Assembly (NCBI GenBank): GCA_945862465.1
Contig: CAMAYO010000017.1
Location: forward strand, 1-38,211
Length of the DNA: 38,211 nt
Direction: 5' to 3'
Origin: Pseudorhodobacter antarcticus
GTDB lineage: Bacteria; Pseudomonadota; Alphaproteobacteria; Rhodobacterales; Rhodobacteraceae
In this document: positions 1,132 through 30,370 of the stretch, piece after piece
Numbering within the stretch: position 1 is the stretch's first letter
Layout of the letters: the number at the start of each line of letters is the position of its first letter
Made by a program: the position numbers and the translations under genes
Notes under the pieces: model-generated
What the model was told of the DNA's origin: nothing
What the model saw: only the letters and a program-made list of their open reading frames with translations
The model's database searches: none

Positions 1132-1640
1132 GCGCCCAGAAGCATGGTCCACCACAACTTGCCCGAGGGTTCTTGGAACCAAGAAAATCCCATCTCGGTC
1201 GCCCGTGCATCCAAAACCATATCGCGGGTGTCGGCTTGGTTCATCCAATCTGACAGGGTGACCAGTTCGGTCTGATAGGTTTCGGAAATCAACTCTCCCA
1301 GCAGTTTGCCGGTGTAACCAACCCGCTCTACCCGCACCAAGGGCGAGGAGCCGTCAGACCCAAAGTGCCACGGGCGGTTTTGCACTGCCATGTCGCGCGA
1401 ATGGGTGGCGCAGGCGGCGATCAGGGCGGCGTTCAACTGCACCTGCGGCGCGCCTTTGCTTTGGCGCAGCACGTTCACGGCATCCAGCATCCGATACAAA
1501 ATCGCTGATTCGTCACCCGGTTTAATGGCATACACCTGCGGCAAAGGCTTGCCGTCTGACCCAACAGGGGCGGGGGCAGGTTTGGCACAAGCTGCCAAAG
1601 CCGCTGCGGCACCTAGAAGCAAAGCTGTGCGTCGATCCAT
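1122..1640 (-). CDS. CAP-domain (SCP/PR1-like) lipoprotein
   Basis: A 172-residue protein. It starts with a twin-Arg-like MDRRTALLLG signal and a lipobox LAAC, so it is probably a lipoprotein in the outer envelope. The mature part is a CAP/SCP domain: LNAALIAACATHSRDMA contains the conserved histidine helix, ELISETYQT the conserved glutamate region, and the end LWWTMLLGA the final strand. Bacterial CAP proteins of the YkwD type are secreted, and their biochemical role is mostly unknown. It sits between two L,D-transpeptidases, which hints at a cell-wall role, but that is inference from position only. Confidence 0.85.
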   Translation of the reverse strand: MDRRTALLLGAAAALAACAKPAPAPVGSDGKPLPQVYAIKPGDESAILYRMLDAVNVLRQSKGAPQVQLNAALIAACATHSRDMAVQNRPWHFGSDGSSPLVRVERVGYTGKLLGELISETYQTELVTLSDWMNQADTRDMVLDARATEMGFSWFQEPSGKLWWTMLLGAAV

Positions 1641-1829
1641 ATTGCGTCACCTGTCTTGGGCCTTAAGCGGGCCTTAGAAATCCCTGCGCCGTCCTTAGCG
1701 CATATCTTTGGCAAGAAAAACCCATGGCAAAGGCACACGACTTAACTTGGCTGTGAATTGCTGCGGCCGCCCTTTCGGTGTAAGAAACCCCCAAATCGGG
1801 CCGAGCCGTGATAAAAAGGAGATCAGCGC

Positions 1830-2438
1830 ATGACTGACGACACCAAAACCCTAGGTCGCCGCCTGTTTATGACAGGGGCTGCCGCAGGCTTAACAGCTGC
1901 CGCACTTCCGGCGCAGGCGCAAAGCTTTGCCAACTCAACCGAATTTGAAACCCCCACGACCGAAGGCAACGAACGCGCGAACGTGTCTAGCTTTCGCTTG
2001 ATGTCGTGGCAGGACTACTTCCCGAACACCGACCATGGTGTGATCTTGGTCGATATCACCTCTCGTGCGCTGCATTTTTGGTCTGAGGATCAGTCGATCT
2101 ATCGGCTATACCCGACCTCGGTGCCGCTGACCGAAGAGCTTACCAAGCGTGGCAGAACCACCGTCATTCAAAAAGTCGTAAACCCGCGCTGGGTCGCCAC
2201 ACAGGGAGAGTTGGAACGCAATCCCGATTGGCCCAAATCGGTTGAAGGTGGATCGCCCGAAAACCCCTTGGGAATTAGGGCGTTGTATCTGGGTTGGCCG
2301 ACGTACCGCATCCACGGAACCCACGACACCCGCAAAATCGGCCGCCGCTCGTCCAATGGCTGCATAGGGCTTTACAACGAACATATCGTCGAATTGTTCG
2401 AGCTGGCCTCGGATGGCACGCAGGTCTTGCTGATCTAG
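1830..2438 (+). CDS. L,D-transpeptidase with probable Tat signal
   Basis: A 202-residue protein preceded by a good Shine-Dalgarno (AAGGAG, ending 9 bases before the ATG). The N-terminus GRRLFMTGAAAG followed by an Ala-rich stretch ending in AQAQ looks like a Tat-type signal cleaved near residue 30. The YkuD domain runs to the C-terminus: YRIHGTHDT carries the conserved histidine and SSNGCIGL the catalytic cysteine near residue 178. The wider YkuD family forms 3-3 cross-links or binds outer-membrane proteins to peptidoglycan. It is more canonical (SNGCI) than its neighbour at 604. Upstream (1641-1829) is 189 bp with no gene, presumably its promoter and that of the divergent CAP gene. Confidence 0.9.
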   Translation: MTDDTKTLGRRLFMTGAAAGLTAAALPAQAQSFANSTEFETPTTEGNERANVSSFRLMSWQDYFPNTDHGVILVDITSRALHFWSEDQSIYRLYPTSVPLTEELTKRGRTTVIQKVVNPRWVATQGELERNPDWPKSVEGGSPENPLGIRALYLGWPTYRIHGTHDTRKIGRRSSNGCIGLYNEHIVELFELASDGTQVLLI

Positions 2439-2664
2439 GGTAGCCCCTGACGCAATGGATTCCATGTGTCAAAATTGTGACGGATGCAAAAGAAGGCTCC
2501 AAAGTGTTGCTTTTTTGACGATTTTTGCGCATTGTGCCTCACAAGATGCGCTGAAAGTGTTGCAATGTTGCCTTTGACCTGCTTGTAAAGTAACAAGAGG
2601 AACTGTCTTGGACGCGCCCGCCGCCTCTGCGAACATCGGTTTGGCGCTTTAAATGGAGAATACT

Positions 2665-2844
2665 ATGAAAAAGATCGCTCTCGCCGCCGTGTTGTCCCTG
2701 GCTGCTTCGTCCGCTTTCGCTGGCGGCGCTGCCACTCCAACCGTAGCTCCTGAAGTCACCGCAACCACCTCGTCGTCGGCTGGTGGCATGGTTGTTCCGC
2801 TGCTGCTGCTGCTGGTTGTCGCTGCTGTCGCTTCGTCGAACTAA
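2665..2844 (+). CDS. Small exported protein with hydrophobic tail, copy 1
   Basis: A 59-residue protein. ATG 2665 is preferred over ATG 2653 because TGGAG sits about 8 bases upstream of it and because the paralogue at 3063 also begins MKK. A cleavable signal (MKKIALAAVLSLAASSAFA) is followed by a short Pro/Thr-rich spacer and a C-terminal hydrophobic segment, GGMVVPLLLLLVVAAVASSN. The last 24 residues are identical to those of the next gene. It is probably anchored in a membrane with a tiny periplasmic part. I do not recognise a named family, though such proteins are familiar near Rhodobacterales housekeeping genes. It has its own terminator. Confidence 0.75.
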   Translation: MKKIALAAVLSLAASSAFAGGAATPTVAPEVTATTSSSAGGMVVPLLLLLVVAAVASSN

Positions 2845-2880
2845 TCTAAGCGCGGTCCGGTTTTCCGGTATCGCTCGAAA

Positions 2881-2906
2881 GGCGGCAGTCAAACTGCCGC
2901 CTTTTT
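2881..2906 (+). terminator. Intrinsic terminator after small protein copy 1
   Basis: A perfect 8-bp stem GGCGGCAG / CTGCCGCC with loop TCAAA is followed directly by five T. It is a textbook rho-independent terminator, 36 bp after the stop of the first small gene, so each copy is a separate transcription unit. Confidence 0.92.
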
Positions 2907-3062
2907 CTTTGTAAGCTATGGTTTATCAGGCAATTCTTGTTCAAATTTCTGCTTGGGCAGTTGCAAAAGCGCTGCCAAAATGCTTTTATGCTGCCACGAG
3001 CAACAATTCTGTCGCGTCCCACGCGGATCAAGCGGCTGAATAAATCATAAACGGAGATCAAA

Positions 3063-3248
3063 ATGAAAAAATTCGCTCTCGCCGCCGCCCTGACTCTGGC
3101 TGCTTCGACCGCTTTCGCTGGCGGTATGGCTGCACCTGTTGTTGAAGCTGCACCGGTTGTCGCTGAAACCACCTCGTCGTCCGCTGGCGGCATGGTTGTT
3201 CCGCTGCTGCTGCTGCTGGTTGTGGCTGCTGTCGCTTCGTCGAACTGA
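3063..3248 (+). CDS. Small exported protein with hydrophobic tail, copy 2
   Basis: A 61-residue paralogue of the gene at 2665, with ACGGAG upstream of ATG. The signal peptide (MKKFALAAALTLAASTAFA) and spacer differ slightly, whereas the tail from TTSSSAGGM to VASSN is the same. The 219-bp space between the copies (2845-3062) holds the first terminator and a promoter region with no further gene. The conserved tail with a diverged spacer suggests selection on the membrane or tail part. The function is unknown. Confidence 0.75.
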   Translation: MKKFALAAALTLAASTAFAGGMAAPVVEAAPVVAETTSSSAGGMVVPLLLLLVVAAVASSN

Positions 3249-3294
3249 GCATTACGAACTGAAGTTCGCTTCAGAACTACAGGCACAAATTTCA

Positions 3295-3322
3295 AAGGAC
3301 GGCGGGCAACTGCCGTCCTTTT
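3295..3322. terminator. Bidirectional terminator between small gene and hemH
   Basis: AAGGACGGC (3295-3303) pairs with GCCGTCCTT (3312-3320) around an 8-nt loop, with T-rich sequence on the plus side. On the minus strand the stem is followed by TTTGAAATTT, so it can also end hemH transcripts (stop at 3332). Confidence 0.85.
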
Positions 3323-3331
3323 CATTTGGCG

Positions 3332-4393
3332 TTACGCCAACCAACCGCCCAGATTTTCGCGGATGATGCCCGAAAGCGCTGCGATATGGGCGGGCTGGTC
3401 GTTCAGGCAGGGAATGTAGGTAAAGCTTTCGCCACCTGCGTGCATAAAGGCTTCGCAAATCTCGCCCTGAATTTCTTCCAGCGTTTCAATGCAATCGGCC
3501 GAAAAGGCAGGGGCCATAACCGCGATGCGCTTTTTGCCAGCCTTGGCCAATTCAGCAACGTGTTCGACGGTATAGGGCTTTAGCCAAACTTCGCGGCCGA
3601 AGACGGATTGGAAGCTGACATCGATCGCCCCCTTTTCCCATCCCAAAGCCTCACGCAAGAGGCGCGTGGTTTTCATGCATTGGCAATGATAGGGGTCGCC
3701 CTCCATTAAATAGCGCAGGGGCATGCCGTGATAGCTGGTCACCAGAACGTCGGGCTTATGCTCTAGCTTGGCATAGGCATCCGTCACCGACTGCGCCAAG
3801 GCATTGATATACAGCGGATGTTCAAAGTATTCCGCCACGGTCCGCACCGCAGGCTGGCGCTTTTCGCTCGCCAAAGCGCGAAAGAAGGCATCGTTGGCCG
3901 TGGCTGACGTGGCGCCCGCGTAATGCGGATAAAGCGGGAAGAACACGATCTTCTCACAGCCAGCCGCAATCATAGCTTTGACCTTGGACGCGGTTGACGG
4001 GTTGCCATAGCGCATACAGAAATCAACCATGATCTCGTCGCCGTAAACCGCCGTCAGGCTGTCTTTGATCGCCGCTGTCTGCTGCTTGGTGATGGTCAGC
4101 AGGGGGCTTTCGTTCAGATCGTGGTTCCAGATCGACTTGTAATTCGCCCCAGATTTTGACGGACGCACCGTCAGGATGATGCCCTGCAGAATAGGTTGCC
4201 ATTTCCAATCGGGCAGATCGACGACGCGCTTATCGGACAAAAACTCGTTCAAATAGCGGCGCATCGGCCAGTAGTCATAGCCATCCGGCGTGCCCAGATT
4301 GGCCAGAAGCACGCCCACCCGTGGGGTTTTCACCACGGGGTGGCTGGCCGGTGCATGGGCCAAGCGTCCGGTTCCTGGGGCGACGTCCGTCAT
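3332..4393 (-). CDS. hemH: Ferrochelatase
   Basis: A 353-residue protein of normal bacterial length; ATG is preceded by AAGGAG. It inserts ferrous iron into protoporphyrin IX, the last step of protoheme synthesis, at the cytoplasmic face of the membrane. Visible motifs are GVLLANLGTPD at the start of the domain, the catalytic histidine in SYHGMP, DVSFQSVFGREVWLKPYT, and the metal-site glutamate in CIETLEEI. The gene reads away from the genomic island: its start codon is only 23 bp from the attL repeat. Any promoter it uses must therefore lie in the last bases of core DNA or inside the island end. Confidence 0.97.
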   Translation of the reverse strand: MTDVAPGTGRLAHAPASHPVVKTPRVGVLLANLGTPDGYDYWPMRRYLNEFLSDKRVVDLPDWKWQPILQGIILTVRPSKSGANYKSIWNHDLNESPLLTITKQQTAAIKDSLTAVYGDEIMVDFCMRYGNPSTASKVKAMIAAGCEKIVFFPLYPHYAGATSATANDAFFRALASEKRQPAVRTVAEYFEHPLYINALAQSVTDAYAKLEHKPDVLVTSYHGMPLRYLMEGDPYHCQCMKTTRLLREALGWEKGAIDVSFQSVFGREVWLKPYTVEHVAELAKAGKKRIAVMAPAFSADCIETLEEIQGEICEAFMHAGGESFTYIPCLNDQPAHIAALSGIIRENLGGWLA

Positions 4394-4416: not shown

Positions 4417-4436
4417 GACAGATAGTGGCATTCTGC
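4417..4436 (+). repeat. attL core repeat
   Basis: The 20 bp are identical to 13082-13101, and flanking bases differ on both sides. Within it, ACAGATA and the inverted ATTCTGC flank GTGGC, which resembles two imperfect inverted core-binding sites around a short overlap region, as expected for a tyrosine recombinase crossover. Confidence 0.85.
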
Positions 4437-4480
4437 TTTTCATCACCAAATACCCCTTATTCCCTTAGAAATAAGGCTTT

Positions 4481-4576: not shown

Positions 4577-5902
4577 ATGCCATTCCATCCAGCAACACTT
4601 AGTTTCCTGCTATCAAAGGGCAAATACTACGCCTGTGTGACGATCCCCAAAGACCTACAAGCCCAGTTTGGCAAAACCCAGATCAAGAGGTCTACAGGCA
4701 CGGCTGACCGAAAAGAGGCACAGCGCCGCTTGCACTCGCTCGAACAGGAAATCTACAGGCTGTTCAACCCTATCAAGGACGAGGTGGAGTTCTTCGCTGC
4801 TGCATTGCAAGCGACATGGGATGAAGACTTTGTGACAGACGAAGAACTGAATGATCCCCAAAAGCTAAGGCAAGCCCTCGCCCACTTACTCAAAGTCGCT
4901 CAGACAGAATCGAAGCGTCCAAGATTGCCTTGGGATCAAGAAGACGGCGAAGCAGGGTGGCTTAAAGACTTTGCCACAGACACTGCCGTTCCGGCTCTTA
5001 CCAAGATGCACAATGACACCTTCGCCAACGGTGATCCTGATGCCCTAACCTTCGCTGACCTACGGGCAAGTTACTTTGAAGGCCCCCTGAGCATTGCTGC
5101 AAGCACTGTCACTTCAAGCAAACTTGCCACCAAGGAGTTTTCAGACTTCATTGGCCCCAAGATAGCTAAGGACATCCGAACGCCTGACATCGTGCAATAC
5201 TGCCGCTTCTTGCACTCCAAGGGCATAGCCAATAGCACAATCAAAGGCCGTGTGGCTAAAGCATCCGCAGTATTCACAAGCGCCAAAGCACTTGGTCTAG
5301 TCGGTGATAACCCTTGCTTAGGCATCAAGTTGACTGATTTTGGTGTCGCTCCAGAGAACTATGCGCCTTTGTCAGGAGAAGAAATAACAGCACTCTTCGC
5401 GCTAGAGATGCCACCACAAGAGCGGTTGGTTTTCCAACTTCTTATGACTAGCGGGTGTCGCTTGGATGAGGTCGCAACCCTGATTTGGTCAGACATAACT
5501 GTTGAGACAGACATTCAACTTCTTGATCTGAGTAGAAGGCCAAAACTTAGGAAGAATAAAGGTTCAGCCCGTAAGATACCGATACATCCTAAGGTAACCC
5601 TACCCCCAAGAGGCGAACCAGACGCGCCATTGTTCAACTATCGTCGTCTGAAAAGTGGTAAGTCTCAGAATGCCAGCACCACCTTGATGTCCTACATACG
5701 GCAGGTCACCAATGATAGGTTAAAGGTAGTTCACAGCCTCAGAGGCTCGTTTAAAGACAGTATGCGTGATCTTGGTGTGGCAGAAGACTTGCAGGATTTC
5801 CTCACTGGGCATTCCCTTGGTGATTTACCTCGCAAGTATGGCAGAGGCCCAGCAATGAGCGTGCGCTATGAAGCAATCTGCAAACTGCCCGTTCCTTGGT
5901 AA
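4577..5902 (+). CDS. Tyrosine-type site-specific integrase
   Basis: A 441-residue protein. The N-terminal part (about 1-60) resembles the short domain common in alphaproteobacterial integrases (KGKYYACVTIPKDLQ). A core-binding helical domain sits around residues 160-260. The catalytic domain has Arg in SGCRLDEVATL, the beta-hairpin Lys in KNKGSARKIP, His-x-x-Arg in VHSLRGSFKD, a second His in TGHSLGD, and the nucleophilic Tyr in RKYGRG. All key residues are present, so it should be active. AGGGG lies about 11 bases before the ATG. Its position next to attL and the arm repeats identifies it as the enzyme that inserted the island. No excisionase gene was recognised. Confidence 0.95.
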   Translation: MPFHPATLSFLLSKGKYYACVTIPKDLQAQFGKTQIKRSTGTADRKEAQRRLHSLEQEIYRLFNPIKDEVEFFAAALQATWDEDFVTDEELNDPQKLRQALAHLLKVAQTESKRPRLPWDQEDGEAGWLKDFATDTAVPALTKMHNDTFANGDPDALTFADLRASYFEGPLSIAASTVTSSKLATKEFSDFIGPKIAKDIRTPDIVQYCRFLHSKGIANSTIKGRVAKASAVFTSAKALGLVGDNPCLGIKLTDFGVAPENYAPLSGEEITALFALEMPPQERLVFQLLMTSGCRLDEVATLIWSDITVETDIQLLDLSRRPKLRKNKGSARKIPIHPKVTLPPRGEPDAPLFNYRRLKSGKSQNASTTLMSYIRQVTNDRLKVVHSLRGSFKDSMRDLGVAEDLQDFLTGHSLGDLPRKYGRGPAMSVRYEAICKLPVPW

Positions 5903-6086
5903 ACGCTCATAGGAAGCCCGCCCAGCGCGATGTCGTGTTAGCGCCACCTATGCCTATCTTTTGCACAGATGACGCTGTACGGCCTCTCCTAGCCTAAGAA
6001 GACTATGCTAAGCCATACTATAGGCATCAGCCACAGTAGAGCCAGCATATGCTTCTTCAGAGATGGGTTTTTAGGAAAGTTTTCCA

Positions 6087-6833
6087 TCACAAAGACCCGT
6101 GCTGACCATAACAGCCGTAGCTGGTCTCCTCGCGATTATAGTCGCCACGTGTCAGCAGGGCAAAACGGACAAGGTGGTTACCCCAGAACCTCACACCAGC
6201 AATGTTCAGGGTCTGCAGGAACTGTTGGTGGTTTGTCACAACCAGCCCGCCTTCAGCGATCTCTGCCATAAAGACTTGAGCCAGAGCGCACTCCTCGCGC
6301 AGTTTGATCCTAAACTGCTCTACCCTTTCAGGTGTGGCTGGCACGTGGTCACACTGAAGGAACCTGACAGACGGCGCTGCTTTGGCATCAAATGCCCCAA
6401 TAGTGTTGGCTAGATCGATAATCTGGGCATAGAAGCACTTATACGCACCAAGGCTCTGAACATCCTCGTAACGCAGGGTCAACATAGCTGCGCGAGTTCG
6501 ATAAGCCGTATTACTCTTACTGATCAGTGTGTTCCTCTCATCAGCATCAGCAGCGACAGTCTCCCAACTTGCCTCTTTATCAATGAAATCAGGCTTGACG
6601 TAGAAGTTGGAGCGCATATCGACCCGCCCAAGGACACCACCAGCCACAAGTGCATCTGTTATTTTGGCCTGTCCTAGCAACTTCACGCTAGGCTTGTGAT
6701 GTTGAGCCAGACCGTCACAGATAACACCAAGCACATCTACAACATCCAAACGCAAGCGCTGGTCAACAGCACCTAGTGCCTTAGCCGCAGCCGTATCTGC
6801 TTTGTGGTTCTTAGCTTTAAACTTAATAGTCAT
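6087..6833 (-). CDS. Hypothetical island protein, 248 aa
   Basis: I do not recognise the family. ATG 6833 is chosen because it begins 4 bases after the stop of the zinc-ribbon gene upstream, suggesting translational coupling; an in-frame ATG at 6848 (MKVKKM) is possible. The protein begins with a basic MTIKFKAKNHK stretch, then a helical, Ala/Leu-rich region and a mixed region with VKPDFIDKEASW. The C-terminal half (EQFRIKLREECALAQVFMAE) is probably alpha-helical. It has no signal peptide or membrane segment, so it is probably cytosolic. It converges with the integrase; the 184 bp between them hold only an 8-bp inverted repeat (5950-5957 / 6020-6027) and no gene. It may be an element-specific replication or regulatory protein, but nothing in the sequence proves this. 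Confidence 0.6.
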   Translation of the reverse strand: MTIKFKAKNHKADTAAAKALGAVDQRLRLDVVDVLGVICDGLAQHHKPSVKLLGQAKITDALVAGGVLGRVDMRSNFYVKPDFIDKEASWETVAADADERNTLISKSNTAYRTRAAMLTLRYEDVQSLGAYKCFYAQIIDLANTIGAFDAKAAPSVRFLQCDHVPATPERVEQFRIKLREECALAQVFMAEIAEGGLVVTNHQQFLQTLNIAGVRFWGNHLVRFALLTRGDYNREETSYGCYGQHGSL

Positions 6834-6837
6834 TTTC

Positions 6838-7056
6838 TTAACTTTCATATGTTGAGTATCGAATCCTGAACGGACCGCAGTTGATTTCCTGAAGACAGTT
6901 GATGCAGCAACTCCACCAGATACCCGAACGAGGGTCATGGAAGGTCTTGGCTGACTTGCATCGGATGCACTGATCCGAATACTTGATCTTGCTGTTGGTG
7001 GCTGTGTGCTTGGCTTTATAAGAAGGAACTTTAAAGCCGTGTTGGGGATTGTTCAC
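6838..7056 (-). CDS. Small zinc-ribbon protein
   Basis: A 72-residue protein with a GTG start. AGAGG lies 9 bases upstream, and the nearby ATG at 7058 is out of frame and stops at once. The middle carries CIRC followed about 17 residues later by CCINC, the two knuckles of a zinc ribbon. The N-terminus is basic, as in small nucleic-acid-binding proteins. It forms a two-gene unit with the 248-residue gene downstream. Its 5' side is the unusual array of stem-loops at 7084-7350, whose last hairpin ends 27 bases before the start codon. It could be a DNA/RNA-binding regulator; the function is not established. Confidence 0.6.
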   Translation of the reverse strand: MNNPQHGFKVPSYKAKHTATNSKIKYSDQCIRCKSAKTFHDPRSGIWWSCCINCLQEINCGPFRIRYSTYES

Positions 7057-7083
7057 ATTATTAAACCTCTAAATATATGCGGA

Positions 7084-7321
7084 AAAGACCCCACCAGTCT
7101 TGATGCCACGGGAATGGACATCGCAACTGATGGGGTAAGTCTTTGTGTAGGACTCGATGGAAGACGCTCCATCAATTCAACTACTGCTCGTCTATGCACA
7201 GTAACTTCGATAACTTGGATTTACGAAGCTACACAGACCATTTCTGGACCTCGTAGAGGTTAAGATGCCTGTCGGCATGGCCTGATAATCGGGACGAGTG
7301 TCCGACTATTCTGATTAGAAT
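7084..7321. ncRNA. Dense array of stem-loops, candidate structured RNA or leader
   Basis: Eight non-random pairings lie end to end. (a) A 61-nt imperfect hairpin, 7084-7144: AAAGA/TCTTT, CCCCA/TGGGG, CAGT/ACTG, GATG/CATC, CCA/TGG, about 21 pairs. (b) P1 TGTGTAG 7144-7150 / CTACACA 7229-7235, enclosing three hairpins at 7156-7173 (GATGGA/TCCATC), 7182-7203 (TACTG/CAGTA) and 7205-7228 (CTTCG/CGAAG). (c) Hairpins at 7248-7260, 7265-7278, 7289-7305 and 7308-7321. No credible ORF covers it. Read on the minus strand, the large hairpin ends in GGGGTCTTTT just before the zinc-ribbon gene and could act as an attenuator, with the P1 junction as a sensor. C/A mismatches become G-U pairs on that strand, slightly favouring minus. 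A DNA role such as an origin cannot be excluded. Confidence 0.5.
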
Positions 7322-7328
7322 TGGTGTG

Positions 7329-7350
7329 AAAAAAACGACAAAGAGTGTCG
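7329..7350 (-). terminator. Intrinsic terminator, minus strand
   Basis: On the minus strand the stem CGACA / TGTCG (5 bp, 5-nt loop, 7350 to 7336) is followed by seven T (7335-7329). It would end a leftward transcript coming from 7384-7626 before the stem-loop array. On the plus strand there is no U-run. Confidence 0.7.
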
Positions 7351-7643
7351 CTAAATCAACATCCTGTCATTTTTTAAGCTATGTTATTGATATGATTGGA
7401 TAATGCAATTATAGGCGACATTAAACCTACTCGGGGGGTCAGAAATTCCCACGGGGAGCATGTGCCTCACCTTACATATATGGGTGTTCGCATGTGATAT
7501 GTCAAGGTCTAAAGTGTAAATAAATGCACTTTCGTTAATCTTTTTTGTGGTGATCATTGGGGAAACTGCATTTATAAATCGAATCCAACTATGCAGATTT
7601 ATAAAGTCATGATATAGAGGTTTCATCAGAAGGAATCTCGCTC
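7351..7643. other. AT-rich intergenic region upstream of serine recombinase
   Basis: It lies between the terminator at 7329 and the recombinase start. It holds an 80-codon minus ORF (7626-7384) without a Shine-Dalgarno and with no recognisable motif. Short inverted repeats are ACATAT 7474-7479 / ATATGT 7497-7502, AAAGTG 7511-7516 / CACTTT 7527-7532, and the 10-bp repeat at 7571-7605. A plus-strand promoter-like pair TTGATA-N17-TATAGG sits at 7387-7415. I see no gene that I can support, but the minus terminator implies some leftward transcript starts here. Confidence 0.4.
7571..7605. promoter_or_regulatory. Perfect 10-bp inverted repeat before recombinase gene
   Basis: TTTATAAATC (7571-7580) and GATTTATAAA (7596-7605) are separated by 15 bp, and each arm contains the palindrome TTTATAAA. 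The site ends 38 bp before the recombinase ATG. It may be an operator over the recombinase promoter or a recombinase-binding subsite; the sequence alone cannot separate these. Confidence 0.5.
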
Positions 7644-8300
7644 ATGAAACAGTTCGTTGTCTACTACCGCGTCTCCTCCAAGCGTCAGGGCGACTCTGGT
7701 CTTGGTCTTGCTGCACAGCAACGAGATGTTGAGATTTACCTAGCCACCTACGCTGAGACACCCTTTGAAGTAATAGGTGAGTTTCAGGATATTGAGAGCG
7801 GCGCACATGATGACCGCCCTGCCCTAGCCCAAGCCATCGCCCTTGCAGAGAAGACAGGCGCAACGCTTCTTGTGGCTAAACTCGACAGGCTATCGCGCAA
7901 GGTGTCCTTCATCTCTGCACTGATGGACCGCAAGCGTCTCAACCTCGTGGTGGTCTCTATGCCACAAGCAGATAAGTTCAGCCTTCACATCTACGCTGCA
8001 CTGGCAGAGCAAGAGCGTGAGTTCATCTCCCTTCGCACACAGGCCGCATTAGCGCCTCTGAAGGGCACAGGTAAACTTGGTGGCAATAGAGGCAACATAG
8101 ACGCTGCTAACGCTGGGGCACGTGCTGTGGCTGACGCTCATGCTTCTAAGGTCATGGATACTATCCGCCCCCTACGCCAAGCAGGGCTGACCCTTCAGCA
8201 AATCGCCAACACGCTGAACAGCACCAAGGTGACAACATCCAAGGGTGGTCTGTGGTATCCCACAACTGTCGCAAACATCTTGAAGCGGTTGGAAGTCTGA
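7644..8300 (+). CDS. Small serine recombinase (resolvase/invertase family)
   Basis: A 218-residue protein with AAGGAA about 8 bases before ATG. The N-terminal catalytic domain has YYRVSSKRQGDSGLGLAAQ with the nucleophilic serine (about residue 11), DIESG, and AKLDRLSRK with the conserved arginines. The E helix region follows (AALAEQEREFISLRTQAAL). The C-terminal part, after GKLGGNRGN, has a helix-turn-helix (LTLQQIANTLNS...WYPTTVANIL). This is resolvase-size, not a large serine integrase, so it is more likely to resolve, invert or regulate than to integrate the island. The upstream inverted repeats are candidate sites of action. Catalytic residues look intact. Confidence 0.93.
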   Translation: MKQFVVYYRVSSKRQGDSGLGLAAQQRDVEIYLATYAETPFEVIGEFQDIESGAHDDRPALAQAIALAEKTGATLLVAKLDRLSRKVSFISALMDRKRLNLVVVSMPQADKFSLHIYAALAEQEREFISLRTQAALAPLKGTGKLGGNRGNIDAANAGARAVADAHASKVMDTIRPLRQAGLTLQQIANTLNSTKVTTSKGGLWYPTTVANILKRLEV

Positions 8301-13081: not shown

Positions 13082-13101
13082 GACAGATAGTGGCATTCTG
13101 C
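13082..13101 (+). repeat. attR core repeat
   Basis: Identical to 4417-4436. It ends 6 bp before the stop codon of the methyltransferase gene, so the attachment site is in the short gap between that gene and hemH and not in a tRNA. Confidence 0.85.
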
Positions 13102-13107
13102 GTCAAA

Positions 13108-13920
13108 TCAAATACCTGCATCGGGCGGCAGCTTTACTTCTGGCACCGAAAGCGCATCTGACAAGCGGTTTGTGGCAGAACCCGGCCGCAGCGGTTTGGG
13201 TTGGCTTTCCGCGGGGGCCCAGCCTGTCAGCACCACGATGTCAAAGGTCGCGGGGATTTTGCCATCTGCCCCGCCGTAGGTTTGCTGGTAAAGCTCTGCC
13301 GCACGGGCAAAAACAGCGCGCTGCGTTGGCTTTCGCAGACGGGCAGCCATGGCGTTGCCCTCGCCCATCGCGCGCAGGTCTTGCATCAGGTGAAAGGCGT
13401 CGCGATAGCGCACTTGGGTGCTAAAGCTGTCGGCCACAGGCAGGGCAAAGCCCGCGCGTTGCAACAGCCCACCTAGGTCGCGAATCTCGGCCATGGGCAG
13501 AATGCGCGGCGACAGGCCGCCTGTCACCTCGGCCTCGGCCTGTGCCAAGCAGGCGCGCAACTCGTGCAGCGTTTGGCCCGCAAACAGCAGCGCCATAAAC
13601 CAACCGTCAGGCTTTAGTGCGCGGCGGCATTGCACGAGTTGGCCGACCGGATCATTGGCCCAATGCAGCGCCAGCGCGTGCACCACCAAATCTTGCGCGC
13701 CTAGGGACAGGTTCAGCACCTCGTCATCGGCGATTGTGGGCATTTCTGACCAAAGCTGTGGAAAAGCGGTCACAACCACGGGGGCTGTAAAGGTCCTGTT
13801 AACCTCGATCAGTCTTTCCTGAACTTCAGATACGACCATCTCTTGCAGAAATAGCGCCGTGGCCTTTTGGCGGTTGCGCAAAAGCTGGGGGCGGTCGGTC
13901 AGGATGGGCACGGTCTGCAT
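13108..13920 (-). CDS. BioC/NDUFAF5-like SAM-dependent methyltransferase
   Basis: 270 residues from ATG 13920; the frame also offers ATG 13932, and neither has a clear ribosome site. The start VPILTDRPQLLRNRQKA is typical of this alphaproteobacterial family, which lies near comF. The glycine-rich SAM loop is poorly conserved, as in NDUFAF5-type proteins. Later parts are recognisable: DLVVHALALHWANDPVGQL, LKPDGWFMALLF and the helical C-terminus. Mitochondrial NDUFAF5 modifies an arginine of complex I; BioC methylates malonyl-ACP. Which applies here is not decidable, and it may not be a methyltransferase in the strict sense. It is divergent from comF with little space, and was probably followed by hemH before the island entered. 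Confidence 0.8.
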   Translation of the reverse strand: MQTVPILTDRPQLLRNRQKATALFLQEMVVSEVQERLIEVNRTFTAPVVVTAFPQLWSEMPTIADDEVLNLSLGAQDLVVHALALHWANDPVGQLVQCRRALKPDGWFMALLFAGQTLHELRACLAQAEAEVTGGLSPRILPMAEIRDLGGLLQRAGFALPVADSFSTQVRYRDAFHLMQDLRAMGEGNAMAARLRKPTQRAVFARAAELYQQTYGGADGKIPATFDIVVLTGWAPAESQPKPLRPGSATNRLSDALSVPEVKLPPDAGI

Positions 13921-28303: not shown

Positions 28304-30370
28304 CTAATCCTCGATCTGCGTGACTTCGCGGCGGAAGGGCAGCGCGTCGCCCAGATCGGGCGCGTCCAGATCGCGGGCATAGCGGTGGCCCGCATGGGTG
28401 GCCCAAGCGATGGGCGCGGGGGCCGCCGCATCGCCGATCACCTTGACCGAGCGTATCCCCGCATCGGCCCAATCGCCCTGCCGCGCCATAAGGTCTAGAA
28501 ACACGCTGTCATCCGAGGTGCGCGAGGTGACAAGGACCACCGCATCGCATTCAATCAGGCCGCGCGCGTCAGTATAGGTGCAACTGGTTTCCACCCCGCC
28601 CGCCTGTACCGCCGCAATGCCTGTGTTCAACCTAATCGCCACGCCCAAGCCCGCCAAACGGCGATGGATTTGCGATTGCTCAAGGGTGTTCGCTGTCCAA
28701 TCCGACACAAAGGCCGATGGCGTCACCAAGGTGACATCGCAGCCCTTTTGCGCGCAAAGTTCGGCCAGAACGCCGCCCATGTAGTAGTGATCGTCGTCAA
28801 ACACCACGACACGGCCCGAAGGGATGCGGCCTGCCATCAGATCGTCGGGCGTAAAGACGGGCATTTGCGGGTGGATGGCCATGGGCACAACGTGCTGACG
28901 CGCCACACCATCCGCCCGCCATGTTGAGCCTGTGGCGACACAAATGTGCTCAAAGCCAAAGGCCAAAACCTCCTCCGCCGAAAGGCGTGATCCGGGATAC
29001 ATCTGCACATTGGACCGCTGGCCCAACTGATACAGCCGATAATCCGCCACCCGTCCCCAAGCCGATAGGCCGGGCAGCTGGCGTTCGCGGGCGACACGGC
29101 CGCCATAGGTTTCCAGCGCCTCGGCCACGGCCACGTCATAGCCGCGCAGGGCGGCTGCGCGTGCCGCCTCTAGCCCCGCAGGGCCAGACCCGATGATCAG
29201 CACCGACTGGCTTTCGCCTTTCGCTGCGATCTTTTCCGGATGCCAACCGCGCCGCCATTCTTCCATCCACGTCGGGTTTTGGGTGCAGCGGCCCATGCCT
29301 TGGGTCATATCGCCCGTCACACAGATGTTGCAGCCGATGCATTCGCGGATATCGTCAATCCGGCCTTCGTCAATCTTGCGCGGCAGGAAGGGGTCGGCAA
29401 TTGACGGGCGCGCACAGCCGATAAAATCCAACCGCCCCTGCTTGATCATCCGCGCCATCACGTCGGGCGAGGTAAAGCGCCCAACCCCCACCACGGGGCG
29501 GGGGCTAAGATCACGAATGCCTGTTACCCAAGCCTCTTGGGCGGCTTCTTCCTTGAACCGCGAGGGGCCAGAGCAATCTTCCCACGTGCCCATGGCCAAA
29601 TCCCACAGGTCGGGAAGCTCGGCGTTCATCGCGATGAAATCGCGCACTTCGGCGTTGGAAAAGCCAAGTTGGCCAATGGTTTCATCCAAAGACACCCGCA
29701 GCGTCAGCGCCATCGTATCGCCCACGGCATCGCGCAGATCGGCCAACACCTCGCGCGCAAAGCGCGAGCGGTTTTCCAGACTGCCGCCGTATTCATCGCT
29801 GCGCTGGTTGGTGGCGCGGGATAGGAAATGCTGAAAGATGCCAAAGCCATGCGCGCCGTATAGGCAGATCAGATCAAACCCCGCCAATTTGCTGCGCTTG
29901 GCGGCATTCACAAACCAGCGGCGCAGGTTCTTGATATCGGTCTTGTCCATCGCGCGGGCCTGCACCGGATCGTTGGTAAAGGTGCGGATGGGCAGGGCCG
30001 ATGGGGCAAGGGGCACTTCTTTGGTGTACATATTGGGGCCGTTGATGCCCGAATAGGCCAGTTGTATCCCCGCCAAAGCCCCATGCGTTTTCATCGCTGC
30101 GGCCATCTTGGCGATCGAGGGGATGTCTTTATCCTCCCACAGGCGCAGCTCGATAAAGGGCGTGATTTCAGACGAATGGTGCATTTCGGTCTGTTCGGTG
30201 AAGATGACACCCCAGCCGCCTTCAGCCTTGGTGGCGCGCATCGCGGCGGCAGCAGAGGGGTCGCGGTAGCCGCCACCATTGCAGTGGGGCACCTGATAAA
30301 AGCGGTTCTTCGCCGTTAGCGGGCCAATCGCCATGGGTTCAAACAGAATATCATAGCGGGGGTCGCGCAT
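28304..30370 (-). CDS. Trimethylamine-dehydrogenase-family flavoprotein (Old Yellow Enzyme + 4Fe-4S + FAD/ADP domains)
   Basis: A 688-residue protein. Residues 1-340 form the flavin barrel, with Cys30 in FYQVPHC, the site of covalent 6-S-cysteinyl FMN in TMADH. The Tyr/His pair in YGAHG and the Asp in ED-x-GPSRF style region are kept. CIGCNICV and RCTQNPT supply the four cluster cysteines. The C-terminal part has the nucleotide motif VLIIGSGPAGLEAARAAALRG. By my alignment from memory, Tyr60 of TMADH is Gln, Trp105 is Ala, and the aromatic residues of the substrate bowl near the cluster are lost, so the substrate is probably not trimethylamine. It lies 4 bp after the LysR gene, within the operon. 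Activity is inferred as an amine or related N-substrate dehydrogenase. Confidence 0.85.
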   Translation of the reverse strand: MRDPRYDILFEPMAIGPLTAKNRFYQVPHCNGGGYRDPSAAAAMRATKAEGGWGVIFTEQTEMHHSSEITPFIELRLWEDKDIPSIAKMAAAMKTHGALAGIQLAYSGINGPNMYTKEVPLAPSALPIRTFTNDPVQARAMDKTDIKNLRRWFVNAAKRSKLAGFDLICLYGAHGFGIFQHFLSRATNQRSDEYGGSLENRSRFAREVLADLRDAVGDTMALTLRVSLDETIGQLGFSNAEVRDFIAMNAELPDLWDLAMGTWEDCSGPSRFKEEAAQEAWVTGIRDLSPRPVVGVGRFTSPDVMARMIKQGRLDFIGCARPSIADPFLPRKIDEGRIDDIRECIGCNICVTGDMTQGMGRCTQNPTWMEEWRRGWHPEKIAAKGESQSVLIIGSGPAGLEAARAAALRGYDVAVAEALETYGGRVARERQLPGLSAWGRVADYRLYQLGQRSNVQMYPGSRLSAEEVLAFGFEHICVATGSTWRADGVARQHVVPMAIHPQMPVFTPDDLMAGRIPSGRVVVFDDDHYYMGGVLAELCAQKGCDVTLVTPSAFVSDWTANTLEQSQIHRRLAGLGVAIRLNTGIAAVQAGGVETSCTYTDARGLIECDAVVLVTSRTSDDSVFLDLMARQGDWADAGIRSVKVIGDAAAPAPIAWATHAGHRYARDLDAPDLGDALPFRREVTQIED

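Follow-up and report, generated by a model that had tools for sequence, protein, structure and literature searches.

Riboswitch and attenuator leaders are characterized by their position before a gene and by alternative folds, and the CI immunity RNA of P4 lies in the leader of one of that element's operons. For the PLE satellites, transcription has been measured, and the excerpted report describes an IIR transcript, with antisense homology to leaders, together with untranslated regions that precede gene clusters (PMC7567579). The PICMI search model, in the excerpt of its source, combines an integrase, AlpA, a primase (DUF3987 or DUF5906 models) and Fis (PMC10803314).

We analyzed a window of 38,211 nucleotides from Pseudorhodobacter antarcticus (contig CAMAYO010000017.1), in which a first-pass annotation had marked a dense run of hairpins as a possible riboswitch-type leader. 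Like riboswitch and attenuator leaders, this island precedes a gene and has alternative folds; unlike them, it matches no known class, has no homologues in our searches to reveal a conserved core and is followed by a weak T run. It differs from the P4 CI immunity RNA in that its complementarity to its own leader is not above control and that it has no Rfam match. Like the PLEs, as far as the excerpt describes them, the small integrated element has a candidate noncoding RNA ahead of one of its operons; antisense homology to leaders, as in the IIR transcript, did not rise above the shuffled range, and the RNA is known here from sequence alone (PMC7567579). An RNA in this element is plausible because PLE satellites have noncoding transcripts and leaders, a parallel that carries no evidence of kinship (PMC7567579, excerpt).

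The integrated element and its genes

The island sits within an integrated element of ~8.7 kb that is bounded by repeats at 4417-4445 and 13082-13110, and it is flanked by a serine recombinase on the plus strand and a 72-aa ORF on the minus strand.

4417-4445, unstranded: left att-like repeat, from a direct-repeat search
4577-5902, plus strand: element integrase (phrog_1, DUF6538)
5989-6087, minus strand: 32-aa hydrophobic peptide, its start overlapping the stop of the 253-aa ORF
6087-6848, minus strand: 253-aa orphan protein, start at 6848, overlapping the end of the 72-aa ORF
6838-7056, minus strand: 72-aa ORF with CxxC pairs, zinc-ribbon-like by eye, no family assigned, GTG start, first gene of the operon
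7079-7320, minus strand: structured island, candidate RNA (RNAfold and shuffles)
7644-8300, plus strand: serine recombinase, divergent from the island
13082-13110, unstranded: right att-like repeat, 86% identical over 29 nt, first 20 bases the same as in the left repeat

The other element genes encode two YbjQ-type proteins, a VRR-nuclease and a DUF5906/VapE-type primase/helicase-like protein. In size and gene kinds the element resembles phage satellites (PICI, PICMI, PLE, P4-like), which combine an integrase, a primase and att repeats and have no virion genes; an integrase, a DUF5906/VapE-type gene and att repeats were seen here. A Pfam scan of 12 element ORFs matched neither virion genes nor AlpA, which the PICMI model as excerpted includes (PMC10803314).

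The left flank is present in 14 of 15 other genomes of the genus, and in 13 of these 14 the site is empty, with the right-flank methyltransferase gene aligning within ~140 nt. In the fourteenth genome, G005, a shorter remnant of the element without the island occupies the same att site (L111 ~1139-4300, contig G005:C49). There, the first part of the integrase is fused in frame to the last part of the primase-like gene, and the middle of the element, including the island, has been lost.

Relatives of the primase-like protein, at 25-30% identity, were found in 16 of 393 other family genomes and in 23 phage records, and a relative of the VRR-nuclease on one plasmid; searches of viral contigs with these two proteins and the integrase gave no matches. 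Relatives of the serine recombinase occur at 72 genome loci and 6 viral loci, the nearest of them in Marivita, Thalassobium, Paradonghicola and Rhodobacter records, from which the host is probably one of the Rhodobacteraceae. The 36-73 nt directly upstream of the recombinase (window 7566-7637) are shared with L023-L026, and this stretch is likely to be an operator or recombination site. In the window it carries TTTATAAATC/GATTTATAAA arms. Fold scans upstream of the recombinase, covering 23 of the 78 loci in 293 windows, gave at least one window below z -2.8 at 8 of the 23 loci; among the five nearest relatives (L022-L026), L022 alone had one. The strongest windows were at L029 (z -4.9) and L022 (104-304, plus strand, z -5.9 from 25 shuffles), the latter 1.3 kb upstream of the closest recombinase relative and without resemblance to the island by covariance model.

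Within the minus-strand operon, the 72-aa ORF matched its own genome only in viral contigs, genome contigs, phages and 61 genomes, and the same was true of the 283-codon frame of the 253-aa protein in viral contigs, 394 family genomes including its own, phages and plasmids. AlphaFold gave the 253-aa protein a mean pLDDT of 31. By eye, the 32-aa peptide is probably a small membrane protein. It shares 81% identity over 27 aa with a peptide adjoining the second integrase of the genome (L138 1613-1708, minus strand), and its frame is convergent with the integrase in both places; elsewhere, 3 of 214 other genomes gave weak matches to it (E 0.007-0.046).

Fold stability and hairpin anatomy

Folded with RNAfold as minus-strand RNA, 7079-7320 reaches -89.0 kcal/mol (z -6.1), and 0 of 400 dinucleotide shuffles were equally stable, against z -3.0 for the plus strand with the same number of shuffles. 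A smaller run of 100 shuffles gave z -5.8 and -2.9, respectively, and this asymmetry bears out the earlier preference for the minus strand. In a scan of the 38 kb with 160-nt windows (step 80 nt, both strands, 40 shuffles each), the minus-strand window starting at 7201 ranked first (z -5.3) and that starting at 7041 ranked fifth. Our control set comprised 320 noncoding-like windows from 72 other loci, which at 15 shuffles each is noisy; the island's stability is unusual at about the 1% level among noncoding windows because four of the 320 reach z <= -6 and nine reach z <= -5. Strand differences of at least 3 z units occur in four of these windows. The structured island is real, and it is apparently non-coding: the first-pass annotation had held that no protein explains it, and a Pfam search with the two ORFs that cross it, 85 aa on the plus strand and 48 aa on the minus strand, gave no match (best E 0.06 and 0.09).

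A replication origin had also been raised for the island. We regard a DNA-level element, that is, an origin or a recombination site acting through DNA hairpins, as distinctly unlikely; the element does have a primase/helicase-like gene and two recombinases, and DNA parameters give the island z -4.1 and -3.2, but the strongest signal comes from RNA parameters on one strand, with G-U pairs (9 of 82 in the minus-strand fold), no iteron-like direct repeats occur in 7040-7660 (one 9-nt two-copy family only), and the primase-like gene lies 4 kb away.

Read 5' to 3' on the minus strand, the region contains the following features.

7475-7505, minus strand: promoter-like TTGACA N19 TATATG (or N17 CATATA), a consensus match from a loose scan
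7334-7352, minus strand: terminator-like hairpin with T run, upstream of the island (terminator scan)
7285-7309, minus strand: hairpin near the presumed 5' end of the island (predicted fold)
7234-7284, minus strand: helix 7277-7284/7234-7241 around hairpins 7267-7276 and 7248-7260 (predicted fold)
7232-7201, minus strand: hairpin, with helix 7224-7232/7201-7209 of the competing fold (predicted fold)
7197-7186, minus strand: weak hairpin (predicted fold)
7184-7147, minus strand: hairpin (predicted fold)
7137-7240, minus strand: multi-hairpin domain, its closing stem 7144-7150/7229-7235 rivaling helix 7277-7284/7234-7241
7084-7144, minus strand: terminal hairpin, 20 pairs at 7088-7136 plus five possible outer pairs (fold)

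The first-pass annotation had counted nine stem-loops, and their stems lie where it placed them, but we count eight, seven within 7079-7320 and one at 7334-7352. Its 61-nt hairpin with about 21 pairs has 20 pairs at 7088-7136, -30.3 kcal/mol when folded alone, and spans 61 nt if the five outer pairs are added, which form in one fold between AAAGA (7140-7144) and UCUUU (7084-7088). In the proposed cloverleaf, all 7 bp of the closing stem 7144-7150/7229-7235 match, and three hairpins lie inside it if the stem is imposed on the fold; yet 7050-7330 folds to -96.0 kcal/mol unforced versus -91.7 kcal/mol with the stem, and the unforced fold pairs 7277-7284/7234-7241 and 7224-7232/7201-7209. The closing stem excludes parts of two stronger helices, and forcing it costs 4.3 kcal/mol. 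In the predicted folds, then, the cloverleaf is an alternative and the main fold uses the competing helix.

The terminal hairpin lies shortly before the ribosome site of the zinc-ribbon-like ORF, as first described, with 18 nt from the end of its stem to AGAGG (7070-7066) and 32 nt to the GTG (7056). The U-rich run ascribed to it amounts to four T: CTTTTCC follows the strong hairpin directly, and this run falls short of the terminator-scan threshold. The hairpin itself is absent from the terminator-scan list, which reports only an overlapping 6-pair hairpin at 7094-7079. In one predicted fold AAAGA, which is partly inside the competing stem, pairs with the UCUUU after the terminal hairpin and covers the short T run, an arrangement compatible with a termination switch rather than proof of one. 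The promoter-like match at 7475-7505 is missing from a stricter scan, and neither scan gave a confident promoter. Inverted 15-nt arms at 7060-7074/7612-7626 were considered as PLE-like flanking repeats and rejected; their identity, 87% over 15 nt, may be chance.

Searches for relatives and a partial recurrence

Rfam gave 0 matches in the window at the curated gathering threshold, in keeping with the novelty first suggested, and the two matches at E 1.7 in 6950-7650 both lie outside the island. ARAGORN found 0 tRNA or tmRNA genes in the window, and blastn of the island against 50,697 phage and 72,556 plasmid records found no homologue. A DNA search returned island matches of 18-29 nt in 13 of 194 other related genomes at E 0.02-0.1, which is chance level.

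The covariance model was built on the single island sequence and so detects close relatives only, and the large searches with it ran under stricter filters. It found one island copy in its own genome and a match in one of 393 other family genomes (G100, 56 nt, a lone hairpin, E 0.0028 per genome); we rejected the latter as a homologue because one match in 393 is about the number expected by chance. It matched 0 of 291 other genomes of the order, a set overlapping the 393, 0 of 78 serine-recombinase loci, and none of L113-L115, three of the loci with relatives of the primase-like protein or VRR-nuclease. A pattern-search match at L132 proved to be the queried hairpin alone, and a second pattern search for island-like sequence found no match. 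A description of this element was not found in the literature on phage satellites with noncoding or structured RNA, which does not imply its absence from print.

One piece of the island recurs in its own genome. Positions 7246-7288 align with 1595-1636 of L138, the locus adjoining the second integrase, over 43 columns at 74% identity. Against a 231-nt target, chosen after the match was seen, 0 of 1000 island shuffles matched the L138 score; over the collected loci its E is 0.23-0.26. Read from the alignment, the L138 hairpin has ACCGC/GCGGU in place of ACCUC/GAGGU, one compensatory pair, and we consider this 43-nt recurrence suggestive. Folding of the longer L138 flank is unremarkable (z -0.8 and -0.5), and the copy partly overlaps the end of the 32-aa peptide frame. 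The recurrence was also tried as a repeat family and rejected; a motif scan of the collected loci finds two copies only, and L095, a locus collected on account of its match, scores better (E 0.005). Two further observations concern the second integrase region: ~30 nt with a palindrome at L138 ~1590-1625 are missing at the matching place in the window, ~5987, and look like a small insertion, and the contig of this integrase (L141, G000:C30) stops at 29435 inside a transposase-like reading frame.

These searches bear on the view that the island has no function and is a series of palindromes, accidental or decayed, in a noncoding stretch of a mobile element. No relatives were found among phages, plasmids and related genomes, four of the 320 control windows are as low in z, and a piece of the island present in one element is missing from the matching place in the other, like a small mobile palindrome. 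Set against these are the island's first rank in the 160-nt scan, its strand asymmetry and its orderly position ahead of the operon start, and on balance we hold the absence of function to be somewhat unlikely.

The island as a possible operon leader

The reading that we favor, at a little below an even chance, is that the island is a minus-strand structured RNA that serves the leftward operon of the element as its 5' leader. A transcript would start in the divergent control region, at ~7330-7500, and fold into the 7079-7320 hairpin array; transcription would then pause or stop at the terminal hairpin, and readthrough, aided by alternative pairing, would allow expression of the 72-aa ORF, the 253-aa protein and the 32-aa peptide. 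The observed fold stability, strand bias, place before the operon and element boundaries form the basis from which we infer transcription, termination, regulation and any switching of the island. The strand-asymmetric stability (z -6.1 versus -3.0), with its G-U pairs, argues for such a leader, as do the short distance to AGAGG and the GTG, the two mutually exclusive folds 4.3 kcal/mol apart, the AAAGA/UCUUU pairing and the 43-nt recurrence with its compensatory pair. Against it stand the four-T run, the terminal hairpin unlisted by the terminator scan, the lack of a confident promoter in either scan or of a whole-island homologue in our searches, the four equally low control windows, and the fact that any long RNA commonly has alternative folds. 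Moreover, a transcript begun at 7475-7505 would be stopped before the island, because the stronger terminator-like hairpin at 7352-7334 lies upstream.

A stand-alone, trans-acting small RNA ending near 7080, such as a P4 CI-like immunity RNA or an RNA that targets a helper phage, we judge unlikely. In PLE satellites noncoding transcripts are the most abundant, and P4 is named as a user of regulatory RNA, according to the excerpted report (PMC7567579). Among seven gene starts, that of the VRR-nuclease gave a duplex energy with the island of -80.5 against a shuffle mean of -66.4 (sd 5.2; 2.7 sd), and a 10-nt stretch at 7202-7211 is complementary to it; both values nevertheless fall within the shuffled range (best shuffle -82.3; control maximum 12 nt), and the six other gene starts and the island's own 5' leader pair no better than shuffles.

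Returning to the leader, a bolder version of it seems improbable to us: that the island represents a new RNA class carried by integrative elements, probably those of Rhodobacteraceae, and that its two exclusive folds decide transcription of the orphan operon. The form that we envisage for this switch is equally doubtful, with the multi-hairpin domain either closed or open with helix 7277-7284/7234-7241. At present the island is a well-folded, leader-like single-copy candidate. If real, it would be a regulatory RNA unknown to Rfam in a small integrated element, and would offer a handle on the control of an orphan operon.
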